Source: Spirosoma montaniterrae (lineage in GTDB: Bacteria; Bacteroidota; Bacteroidia; Cytophagales; Spirosomataceae). From it: a DNA stretch of 64,000 bases. Below the pieces are notes generated by a model that was not told where the DNA came from, made no database searches, and was given only the letters and a program-made list of their open reading frames with translations. Of the stretch, positions 1 through 5,008 are shown one piece after another. Positions within the stretch are counted from its first letter, which is position 1. The number at the start of each line of letters is the position of its first letter. Where the stretch lies: NCBI RefSeq assembly GCF_001988955.1, contig NZ_CP014263.1, positions 4,620,001-4,684,000 on the forward strand, given 5' to 3'. Made by a program: the position numbers and the translations under genes.

Positions 1-525
1 CTCGAACTTGATTTTCAACTTTTTGTCGGGTTCAAACCAACGCCAGTTTGGGAAGCCGGTTGTATGGCTCAGGCACATTCGGGCCGTAATTTTTTCGTAA
101 CGCCGGTCTTCCCGCAGATGCTGATAGCCGCGATTCCAGCCGTCTATTTTGTAGTCGGGCAATGGTTTGTTGAGGTACGTAATGAGTGGCTGGTCCAGAT
201 TCAGTTTGCCCTCCTGCACGAGTTGCATAGCTATGTAAGCAAAAACCGTTTTGGCGAATGAGGCCGCGTACATGACTGACTCAGGCGTTAACGACACGCT
301 TCGGGGTACATCGGCCAGGCCATACGTTTGACTGAAAACGGGCTTGTTCCTGTTGAATACGGAGATTGCCACGCCCGATACATTGGCAACCTGCATTAAG
401 TGTTTGATTCTATGATCCAGACTGTCTGCCGAAAGCCGTGAGCCGTCGAGCCGATGAAGTGTTTGAGCGCGTAGAGTATGGCTAAACAGCGCAATAAGTA
501 GCGAGCAGCGAAGAAGAAACAGCAT
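1..525 (-). CDS. Serine hydrolase, class C beta-lactamase-like (3' end outside window)
   Basis: I translated 175 codons from an ATG at 525, running off the left edge. The product begins with a signal peptide ending in LRAQ. It then shows the serine beta-lactamase/penicillin-binding-protein fold start, including the catalytic S-x-x-K motif as SFAK at about residues 90-93, and the family-typical stretch CLSHTTGFPNW near residue 155. The later YxN and KTG motifs would lie beyond the window. Family members are secreted or periplasmic hydrolases acting on beta-lactams, peptidoglycan peptides or esters; substrate cannot be told here. It lies 16 nt after the M56 gene on the same strand, so it is probably the last gene of a blaI-M56-hydrolase operon, the layout of a bla resistance unit. 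Confidence 0.8.
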   Translation of the reverse strand, partial: MLFLLRCSLLIALFSHTLRAQTLHRLDGSRLSADSLDHRIKHLMQVANVSGVAISVFNRNKPVFSQTYGLADVPRSVSLTPESVMYAASFAKTVFAYIAMQLVQEGKLNLDQPLITYLNKPLPDYKIDGWNRGYQHLREDRRYEKITARMCLSHTTGFPNWRWFEPDKKLKIKFE

Positions 526-3117: not shown

Positions 3118-3133
3118 TACGAATAATTTCGTA
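3118..3133 (-). promoter_or_regulatory. BlaI-type operator O1
   Basis: The sequence is TACGAA-TAAT-TTCGTA, a perfect 6-bp inverted repeat with a 4-nt centre. It covers the expected transcription start of the repressor gene, directly after the -7 box. The same arms and spacing recur in O2, which makes a dimeric repressor site likely. Confidence 0.75.
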
Positions 3134-3134
3134 A

Positions 3135-3165
3135 CAAACATATACGAACAAATTCGTAGATGCAA
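3135..3165 (-). promoter_or_regulatory. Promoter of the blaI-M56-hydrolase unit
   Basis: Read on the minus strand, TTG (3163-3165) is followed after exactly 20 nt by TATGTTTG (3135-3142). This fits the Bacteroidota promoter TTG-N19-21-TAnnTTTG. The start codon of the repressor is at 3109. Operator O2 fills the spacer and O1 follows the -7 box. Confidence 0.75.
3143..3158 (-). promoter_or_regulatory. BlaI-type operator O2
   Basis: The sequence is TACGAA-CAAA-TTCGTA, with the same arms and centre length as O1 and a centre-to-centre distance of 25 bp. It fills the spacer between the -33 and -7 boxes. It also lies 71 nt upstream of the divergent pepF start, so it might influence that gene too. 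Confidence 0.75.
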
Positions 3166-3229: not shown

Positions 3230-5008
3230 ATGACCCCAACAGAAACACTGACTTTACCATCCCGCCCACCCCGGCGGTTTATTGGCGAAAACCTGAATCT
3301 GAACGGCTGGGCCGATGTGCAGCCGTTGTACGACGAACTGCTGAACCGTCCGCTCAACAGTGCCGACGACCTGCGGCAGTGGCTGATCGACCGAAGCGAG
3401 CTGGAATCGTACTTATCCGAAGACTTTGCCTGGCGGTACATCCGCATGACCTGCGACACGGCCAATGAGTCGTTGTTAAATCAGCTTAATTTTTTCATTG
3501 CCGAGATTCAGCCGCAGATGACCGCCTACGGCAACGACCTCGACCTGAAAACCGTTAATAGCCCGTATTTGAGCCAGTTAACCGACGCGGGTTTCGACGT
3601 GATGGTGCGCGGGATGAAAAAAGCCATCGAAATTTTCCGGGACGAAAACATACCGCTGCAAACCGAACTACAAACCGAGGAGCGGCAGTATGGAGCCATT
3701 GCCGGGGCTATGACAGTAACCATCGACGGGCGCGAAATGACGCTACCCGAAGCCTCCGACCGGCTGCAATCGACCGACCGGGCCATTCGCGAAGACGCCT
3801 GGCGCAAAATCGGGGAACGCCGGTATCAGGATCACGAAACCCTCGACCAATTGTTCGACCGGCTGCGCGACCTGCGGCACCGGGTGGCCGTTAACGCCGG
3901 TTTTGCCAACTTCCGCGATTATTCGTTTGCCGCACTGGGCCGCTTCGACTACACGCCCGAAGACTGCTTTACTTTTCACGAATCGGTGGCCGAGGCCGTA
4001 GTACCGTTATTGAACGACTTAGCCCGCGAGCGGAAACGGAAACTGAACGTGGAGCCGCTGCGCCCGTGGGACGCAAAAGTTGACGTTGACGGTCGCCCCC
4101 CGCTGAAGCCGTTTGAAACCGGAGCCGAGTTAGTCGAAAAAACCATCGCCTGTTTCGACCGATTGACCCCACCCCCAACCCCTCCCCTAAAACAAGGGGA
4201 GGGGAGCGAGTTTGGTAATGATCTGCGGATTATGCGGGCAATGGGCCACCTCGACCTGGAGTCGCGGAAGGGCAAGGCACCGGGCGGTTATAATTACCCC
4301 CTCGAAGAAATTGGCGTACCCTTTATTTTCATGAATGCCACCAGCAGCCTGCGCGACGTGGTGACGATGGTACATGAAGGGGGCCACGCCGTGCATTCGT
4401 TTCTGACACGCGATTTGCCGTTGAAAGCCTTCCGCAACCCACCGATGGAAGTAGCCGAACTGGCGTCGATGAGCATGGAATTATTGTCGATGGACCATTG
4501 GGACGTGTTTTTCGATAATCCAGCCGACCTGCGCCGGGCCAAACTGCAACACCTCGAATCGATTATCGAAACGCTGCCGTGGGTAGCTACCATCGATAAA
4601 TTTCAACACTGGATTTACGAAAACCCGGCGCACACGGTGGCCGAACGACGCGAAAACTGGCTGCATATTTACGAGCAGTTTGCCGATTCTGTGACCGACT
4701 GGAGTGGGTTCGCTTATTACAAAGAATACATCTGGCAGCGACAATTGCATTTGTTTGAAGTGCCCTTTTATTACATTGAATATGGCATTGCTCAATTGGG
4801 TGCTATTGGCGTCTGGCGCAACTACCGGCGCGACCCGCAGGCCGGGCTTGCAGGCTACAAAGCCGCGTTGAGCTTAGGCTACAAAGCCCCCATACGCGAC
4901 ATTTACGCAGCCGCAAACGTACCATTCGACTTTTCGCGCCAACACATCCGCGAGTTAATCGGTTTTGTGGAAGACGAAATCAAAAAATTGACGGCTGTTG
5001 AGTCGTGA
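3230..5008 (+). CDS. pepF: Oligoendopeptidase F-like M3 metallopeptidase
   Basis: The 592-aa product matches the M3 oligoendopeptidase F family, cytoplasmic zinc peptidases that cut short peptides. The zinc motif HEGGH is at residues 382-386, inside TMVHEGGHAVHSFL, and the typical C-terminal region with WQRQLHLFEVPFYYIEYG follows. There is no signal peptide. Around residues 312-327 the protein carries an odd low-complexity piece (LTPPPTPPLKQGEGSEFG) encoded by a GC-rich palindromic repeat that keeps the frame open. It is transcribed divergently from the BlaI-type repressor, with the two operators in between. No close-fitting promoter of its own was seen. Confidence 0.9.
   Translation: MTPTETLTLPSRPPRRFIGENLNLNGWADVQPLYDELLNRPLNSADDLRQWLIDRSELESYLSEDFAWRYIRMTCDTANESLLNQLNFFIAEIQPQMTAYGNDLDLKTVNSPYLSQLTDAGFDVMVRGMKKAIEIFRDENIPLQTELQTEERQYGAIAGAMTVTIDGREMTLPEASDRLQSTDRAIREDAWRKIGERRYQDHETLDQLFDRLRDLRHRVAVNAGFANFRDYSFAALGRFDYTPEDCFTFHESVAEAVVPLLNDLARERKRKLNVEPLRPWDAKVDVDGRPPLKPFETGAELVEKTIACFDRLTPPPTPPLKQGEGSEFGNDLRIMRAMGHLDLESRKGKAPGGYNYPLEEIGVPFIFMNATSSLRDVVTMVHEGGHAVHSFLTRDLPLKAFRNPPMEVAELASMSMELLSMDHWDVFFDNPADLRRAKLQHLESIIETLPWVATIDKFQHWIYENPAHTVAERRENWLHIYEQFADSVTDWSGFAYYKEYIWQRQLHLFEVPFYYIEYGIAQLGAIGVWRNYRRDPQAGLAGYKAALSLGYKAPIRDIYAAANVPFDFSRQHIRELIGFVEDEIKKLTAVES
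4167..4204 (+). repeat. GC-rich palindromic repeat inside pepF
   Basis: The core is a perfect 10-bp inverted repeat, CCCCTCCCCT (4179-4188) and AGGGGAGGGG (4195-4204), with a 6-nt loop AAAACA, preceded by CCCCACCCCCAA. This form is known as an interspersed intergenic repeat in several bacterial genomes. Here it is translated in frame within pepF. Confidence 0.8.

Follow-up and report, generated by a model that had tools for sequence, protein, structure and literature searches.

The closest described relatives of the locus reported here are the BlaI/MecI repressors of staphylococci and Bacillus, whose family also includes antibiotic-resistance regulators. In those systems a PF03965 repressor gene lies beside the gene for an M56 metalloprotease (BlaR1 or MecR1), and the repressor controls its own synthesis from inverted-repeat operators (partly described in the accessible text of PMC9834060). 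According to the same text, BlaR1 cleaves S. aureus BlaI at Asn101-Phe102. For CopY, the accessible part of PMC7253601 describes two operators near the promoter, most of them 24 to 39 bases apart with a mode of 26, and a 16-base consensus. In Clostridium thermocellum, BlaI_0696 and BlaI_1845 have small regulons, repress themselves, and have two inverted-repeat pairs per target, an arrangement called a strict requirement; the accessible part of the source (PMC8457756) held no comparison of helix with operator that we could find. Double dyads and autorepression are already known for BlaI and CopY, and the architecture itself is known.

We analyzed a 64,000-nucleotide stretch of the Spirosoma montaniterrae genome (the window), in which two dyads of the form TACGAA-N4-TTCGTA precede a blaI gene. 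With the staphylococcal and Bacillus systems this locus shares the PF03965 repressor beside an M56 gene, the inverted-repeat operators (two, at its own blaI promoter, a trait of the BlaI/MecI/CopY family) and, as predicted here, autoregulation. With CopY/CopR it shares the two-operator promoter, the 16-base site and the proposal of the same two-layer block (PMC7253601, accessible part), and with the C. thermocellum proteins two inverted-repeat pairs per target and, if our prediction holds, autorepression and a small regulon (PMC8457756, accessible part). The operators themselves differ. The staphylococcal and Bacillus core is TACA/TGTA, in place of which Spirosoma has the TACGAA and TTCGTA arms; CopY/CopR have a RNYKACANNTGTMRNY operator and a metal-binding CXC motif (PMC7253601, accessible part), whereas Spirosoma BlaI has no cysteine; and the C. 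thermocellum arms are GTCTAT, five nucleotides apart (PMC8457756, accessible part). The initial annotation had called the arms a distinct Bacteroidota version of the BlaI site. The published TACANNTGTA core (PMC7253601, accessible part) is indeed absent, but the arms are neither of one type nor confined to Bacteroidota: members of this phylum use at least three further arm types beside TACGA, one of which also occurs in the S. montaniterrae genome. A literature search, with most subscription journals outside its reach, found, among the papers listed, no report of a Spirosoma-type operator or of a Bacteroidota BlaI helix code. The operator, its embedding in a Bacteroidota promoter, its spread, and the match between helix and arms appear to be new.

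We read the locus as the operator-promoter through which a Bacteroidota-type BlaI repressor regulates its own gene, and we put the probability of this reading at about 0.92. A BlaI dimer would bind each 16-bp dyad; with one dyad in the -33/-7 spacer and the other over the start site, bound BlaI would exclude RNA polymerase, and expression of blaI and the M56 gene would be held low. An envelope signal would trigger the membrane M56 peptidase, BlaI would be inactivated, as it is by BlaR1, and the operon would be induced together with other genes that carry paired dyads, here an outer-membrane beta-barrel gene. Sequence comparison establishes the sites, how well they are kept, their association with blaI, the promoter layout in most loci, and the association of dyad arms with the recognition helix; the binding, the repression, the proteolytic release and the signal are what we infer. 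With a searchable operator for this regulator family, which is widespread in Bacteroidota, BlaI regulons become listable from sequence.

The blaI promoter and its products

The two dyads with identical arms, 25 bp apart around the promoter, that the initial annotation had described are both exact matches, and they lie one on each side of the -7 box (Table 1). The distance to the blaI start, given there as 9 nt, came to 8 nt when we counted the bases between the proximal dyad and the ATG (3109-3107). On the minus strand, the TTG is followed by 4 bases, the distal dyad, TATGTTTG directly after it, 1 base, and the proximal dyad. The upstream TTG is what we take to be the -33 element of a Bacteroidota primary-sigma promoter. 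Its spacer to TATGTTTG is N20, and 16 of these 20 bases are the distal dyad. TTG-N20-TATGTTTG, at 3165-3135 on the minus strand, has the form of such a promoter, TAnnTTTG being the quoted -7 consensus, placed at -12 to -5 (PMC9723704, accessible part). The consensus of the -7 box in the genus is TATatgtTT, and no more than 13 of the 30 Spirosoma loci have the strict form. A steric block of both the spacer and the start site, as had been suggested, would be consistent with this layout.

Table 1. Features of the S. montaniterrae blaI locus, in window coordinates
Feature	Position	Strand	Sequence	Remarks
Putative -33 element	3163..3165	-	TTG	TTGCA invariant in 30/30 Spirosoma loci
Distal operator dyad, TACGAA-N4-TTCGTA	3143..3158		TACGAACAAATTCGTA	Exact match; fills the -33/-7 spacer
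Putative -7 box	3135..3142	-	TATGTTTG	Between both dyads; fits the TAnnTTTG consensus (PMC9723704, accessible part)
Predicted transcription start	3130	-		Inside the proximal dyad; predicted from TAnnTTTG lying at -12 to -5
Proximal operator dyad, TACGAA-N4-TTCGTA	3118..3133		TACGAATAATTTCGTA	Exact match; over the predicted start site
blaI, winged-helix repressor (PF03965), 121 aa	2744..3109	-		Pfam and solved relatives
M56-family membrane metallopeptidase, BlaR1-like, 708 aa	542..2668	-		HELAH at 215; Pfam
PF00144 serine hydrolase, 393 aa, start of gene	1..525	-		Continues outside the window (L047 9345-10526)
Divergent M3 oligoendopeptidase	3230..5008	+		Conserved neighbor in 30/30 Spirosoma loci

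BlaI scored 95.2 bits against PF03965 (Penicillinase_R; curated cut-off, 22.6), and its residues 5-119 matched the solved chains 2g9w, 1sd6, 1okr/1sax/2d45, and 1sd4 with E values from 4.4e-10 to 6.8e-6. The best solved match by sequence, 2g9w, has YTT in common with it where the recognition helices align; it is recorded as a conserved hypothetical protein and is presumably mycobacterial BlaI. The score against the NCBIfam CopY_TcrY equivalog was 54 bits (cut-off, 121.95), and the C-terminal CXC of CopY/TcrY is absent. The M56 protein scored 99.8 bits against PF05569 and has its HEXXH motif; only its residues 118-313 matched NCBIfam blaR1_generic, with 99.4 bits against a cut-off of 400. BlaR1 and MecR1 have a penicillin-binding sensor, whereas a Pfam domain search recognized none fused C-terminally to the Spirosoma protein. 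The S. aureus cleavage site Asn101-Phe102 aligns with Gln96-Val97 of Spirosoma BlaI, so proteolytic release by M56 is proposed by analogy only.

Conservation and spread of the paired dyads

Within the window, dyads with at most 2 mismatches were not above chance (5 matches versus a shuffle mean of 2.62, with 13 of 100 shuffles reaching 5); this enrichment was dropped as evidence, and the case therefore rests on exact sites. The whole S. montaniterrae genome (5.80 Mb, one contig) has 4 exact dyads versus 1 when it is read backwards as a control, and 2 exact pairs versus 0, both with 25-bp spacing. These 4 sites are the blaI pair and a pair before a beta-barrel gene, and frequent occurrence at random sites, which would have told against an operator, was not seen. 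There were also 15 one-mismatch sites (8 in the backwards control at ≤1 mismatch). We rejected these as further regulon members: 14 of them lie within open reading frames (ORFs) of at least 100 codons (11/11 and 3/4 in two batches), and the one left over, C1:5418110, is a lone degenerate site.

Across 36 Spirosoma genomes there were 80 exact single dyads versus 11 in the controls. By our own tally, for which the places of the sites were listed only in part, 68 belong to the blaI locus, 2 to the second S. montaniterrae pair, and 10 are scattered, which is about the control level. The upstream comparison with relatives proposed at the outset found the pair (gap of 9, ≤2 mismatches) in 35 of the 36 genomes and in 0 of 36 backwards controls. 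It occurs once per genome, and twice in S. montaniterrae alone; in 34 of the 36 it marks blaI only. The exception is an 84% complete genome (G002) in which an exact dyad remains 5 nt ahead of blaI. Over 30 Spirosoma loci (29 distinct), the arms of the proximal dyad are invariant and those of the distal dyad nearly so, while the N4 centers vary.

Beyond Spirosoma, we scanned a named genome collection blindly for two exact dyads 0 to 30 bases apart. At least 117 stretches were found, and 80 loci among the matches listed were readable. In 66 of these 80 listed loci blaI lies downstream of the pair, within 123 bp in 62 and within 479 bp in all; 72 of the 80 are in Bacteroidota records, judging from titles. 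An outer-membrane beta-barrel gene follows the pair in 5 of the listed loci, one more (L093, from S. fluviale) is the usual Spirosoma blaI locus cut by the end of the sequence piece, and the remaining 8 have neither gene.

Four of these 8 are L095, L098, L102, and L108; in L095 the pair lies ahead of an S41 peptidase gene. By eye, the pairs of L102 / L330 and of L098 are close to ABC transporter genes, and one flank of L102 encodes a coiled-coil-like protein. Two others, from Hymenobacter metagenome-assembled genomes (MAGs) (L054 and L071), are self-complementary hairpins and probably not operators. The last two are probably not operators either: they are gap-23 TACGAAATTTTTCGTA repeats in a Clostridiales MAG and a Bacteroidales MAG (L073, 2079-2133; L079, 7040-7094). 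The genes beside them have nearly the same N terminus (NPFKFGT.V...FTDR) and, by eye from this end, resemble one ATPase family; these repeats are probably unrelated to BlaI.

Among the matches listed, 94 of 96 neighboring dyad pairs have gaps of 5 to 17 bases, and the distribution peaks at 8-9 and again at 14-15. The gaps have a direction: in 87 of them, again among the matches listed, TTTG was read towards the gene in 60 and away from it in 0, a looser form in 64 versus 2, and the strict TAnnTTTG in 42 versus 0. Under the record titles Ignavibacteria, Kapaibacterium, and Chlorobiota there are likewise blaI genes with paired TACGAA dyads next to them, as there are in a single Planctomycetota MAG and a single Actinomycetota MAG. 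In a draw of genomes across the phylum, the exact pair was present in only 21 of 395 (control, 0 among the rows listed); of the 19 further loci given, 16 have blaI next to the pair, as do G000 (S. montaniterrae) and G011.

The promoter layout recurs in most loci. Among 51 non-Spirosoma loci retrieved through their BlaI protein, 31 have a dyad flanked by both TTG and TA-N2..4-TTTG, versus 0 of 51 on the reverse strand; the layout test failed in the other 20. By eye, narrow gaps between dyads usually coincide with the -7 box and wide gaps often with the -33 element; in most cases the spacer is filled by one dyad. The first of these relations holds well by number, since 30 of 34 neighboring pairs 24 to 28 bp apart were labelled -7. 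The second is weak: of 20 pairs 30 to 31 bp apart, 8 were labelled -33, 9 were -7-like (one was both), and 4 were neither.

These layouts bear on the role of the second dyad. It may be that the spacer dyad alone matters and that the second is redundant or cooperative rather than a block of the start site, as would fit the 9 of 51 non-Spirosoma loci with one dyad only (≤1 mismatch) and several loci in which the second dyad lies upstream of the -33 element instead of over the start. We think this unlikely, given that the proximal arms are invariant in 30 of 30 Spirosoma loci and that three-dyad promoters are common (21 of 51). A block of both the spacer and the start site is the reading that we prefer.

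Recognition helix and dyad arms

Loci were also fetched by BlaI protein, independently of the motif, and dyads were sought within 200 bp upstream. After removal of duplicates there were 143 loci; this set comprises the loci given plus hand-picked table rows, with other listed matches outside the count. Every one of the 81 distinct fetched loci whose helix residues 37-42 are YTT(T/A/I)LK has a TACGAA dyad, versus 0 of 81 in the coding-side control, and other helices go with other arms (Table 2). Applied to the first 200 bases of the coding regions, the scan for all classes gave 1 match in 143. A de novo search, which used no consensus and asked only for perfect 5+5 arms in the 16-bp geometry, recovered the same classes.

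Table 2. BlaI helix residues 37-42 and upstream dyads (≤1 mismatch; de novo arms are the first five letters of the dyad arm)
Helix	Dyad	Loci with dyad	De novo	Hold-out
YTTTLK	TACGAA	50/50	48/50	
YTTALK	TACGAA	30/30	30/30	
YTTILK	TACGAA	1/1		
YMSTLK	TAAGAA	6/6	6/6	
YTTVMT	TACTAW	21/22	20/22	15/16
YTTIMT	TACTAW	2/5	3/5	2/4
YNTVST	AACTAW	9/10	9/10	6/7
YNTLST	AACTAW	5/6	4/6	5/6
YNTTST	AACTAW	1/1		1/1
YNTISS	AACTAW	1/2		1/2
YTSTLK	TACGAA with altered second arm	3/4		
YSSTLK	TACGAA with altered second arm	2/2		
YTTLAS	No class dyad	0/2		
YTTIAS	No class dyad	0/1		
SNTVAT	No class dyad	0/1		

The TACTAW and AACTAW consensus sequences came originally from L234, L243, and L266-L272, and they were retested on 40 loci (L331-L370) chosen from the protein table before their DNA was seen. 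This hold-out set supports both classes; four other loci in it gave 0/4, and shuffling the mononucleotides of the upstream regions gave matches to any class in 24 of 800. A half-changed dyad, TACGAA...TTCCTA, accounts for 5 of the 6 YTSTLK and YSSTLK loci, the sixth (L233) having TACGAT-N4-ATCGTA. Though unpredicted, the half-changed dyads fit an evolutionary intermediate. The BlaI tree has three well-supported deep clades, with many inner forks poorly supported, and in it the TAAGA paralogues are nested in the TACGA clade, next to sequences whose helices are intermediate and whose dyads are half changed. Because the loci are related in this way (three deep clades and one nested change), few independent evolutionary events stand behind the comparison of helix and arms. 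The TAAGA paralogues of Spirosoma (L227-L232; helix IYMSTLK) have TAAGAA-N4-TTCTTA dyads, in 3 upstream copies in five of them and in 2 in L229.

In the alignment, BlaI residues 38, 39, 41, and 42 correspond to MecI positions 43, 44, 46, and 47, which contact DNA; it is by this alignment and by the MecI-DNA contacts that residues 36-42 were placed on the recognition helix. The Bacteroidota clades have one 16-bp dyad geometry in common, with arms that differ according to helix residues 37-42. In the S. montaniterrae genome one BlaI is of the TACGA type and two paralogues (L234 and L235) are of the AACTA type, so operators within one cell appear to be insulated from each other. A fuller reading, for which we see the odds as even, is a modular code on the fixed dyad. 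Residues 38-39 would set the outer triplet (TT, TAC; MS, TAA; NT, AAC) and residues 40-42 the inner bases [(T/A/I)LK, GA; VMT or (V/L)ST, TA]; paralogues of one cell would thereby be insulated, and duplicated repressors would have reached new operators through these few residues. The match makes repressor specificity directly testable by a few residue swaps.

The simplest account of these data is that the neighboring BlaI recognizes the dyads directly, with the letters of the arms set by its recognition helix. The conservation in Spirosoma, the blind scan that landed on blaI, and the match of helix and dyad classes strongly support the earlier proposal that the dyads are the operator of the adjacent BlaI-type repressor. 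Binding by another regulator, with blaI merely as its target, would fit the pairs away from blaI: among the matches listed, a beta-barrel gene stands behind the pair in 5 of the 80 blind-scan loci, and 8 of 80 have neither gene. However, the dyad changes with BlaI clade and helix (TAAGA, TACTA, and AACTA in 6/6 YMSTLK, 20/22 YTTVMT, and 9/10 YNTVST loci). It tracks the local BlaI, which is not expected of a common outside regulator, and we consider such a regulator very improbable. Least credible of all are RNA hairpins or terminators: the two dyads of L054 and of L071 are mutually complementary and would form one long hairpin, with a GC-rich base and a terminator-like T-run in L071, but at blaI loci the N4 centers vary while the arms stay, TTTG in the gaps runs in one direction (60/87 versus 0/87 among the matches listed), and the distal dyad, upstream of the predicted start, would not be transcribed. 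Direct recognition by BlaI is the account that we carry forward.

Second targets and neighboring genes

The predicted BlaI regulon exceeds autoregulation. The second exact pair of the S. montaniterrae genome (C1:5220816 and 5220841, spanning 5220816-5220856; L046 8817-8857) precedes a gene (at C1:5220921; L046 8922-11372) for an 816-aa, TonB-receptor-like protein with OMP_b-brl_3, Plug, and CarboxypepD_reg domains. Promoter elements at this pair are poor by eye. At a distance of 0.6 kb upstream is a gene for a DDE transposase. Among 29 fetched homologues of the beta-barrel gene, one per genome from the 35 other Spirosoma genomes, none has the dyad within 350 bp at ≤2 mismatches, and 4 have one site each with 3 mismatches. 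On this count we rejected the idea that BlaI control of an outer-membrane gene is ancestral in Spirosoma, and the second site looks like a local gain.

Pairs followed by similar beta-barrel genes were also present in Emticicia (L052), in Hymenobacter (L056, L091, L106, and L116, of which two belong to a single strain), and in another two genomes from the family of G047 (L326 and L329); Pfam confirmation covers L056, L091, and L116. The recurrence of beta-barrel genes among the predicted targets suggests an envelope role for the BlaI-M56 system, and hints that it reports on the envelope and not on beta-lactams alone. In the Hymenobacteraceae-type loci L091, L106, and L326, a gene that is MarR-like by eye, the dyad pair, and the beta-barrel gene recur jointly; as read, L108 has the MarR-like gene only and L329 the beta-barrel gene only. 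Three exact dyads lie at 2225-2296 of L327 (genome G442), where neither blaI nor a beta-barrel gene was found beside them; the next long downstream ORF resembles a response regulator by eye.

Downstream of the M56 gene, the PF00144 gene begins 16 nt past the stop and is possibly part of the blaI-M56 operon in S. montaniterrae. A split BlaR1, with the PF00144 protein as sensor in trans, was rejected: no homologue was found beside M56 in any of the 16 other Spirosoma loci fetched (from 35 other genomes). The protein scored 66 against a class C beta-lactamase cut-off of 415, far below it, and the gene is at most a local addition.

On the other side of the promoter, the divergent M3 oligoendopeptidase gene is counted here as a conserved neighbor, and is at most a candidate for control by the dyads. 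Within this gene, a PPPTPPLKQGEG stretch that is missing or replaced in the 28 other Spirosoma copies compared is inserted in frame by a GC-rich palindromic element at 4179-4204 of the window.
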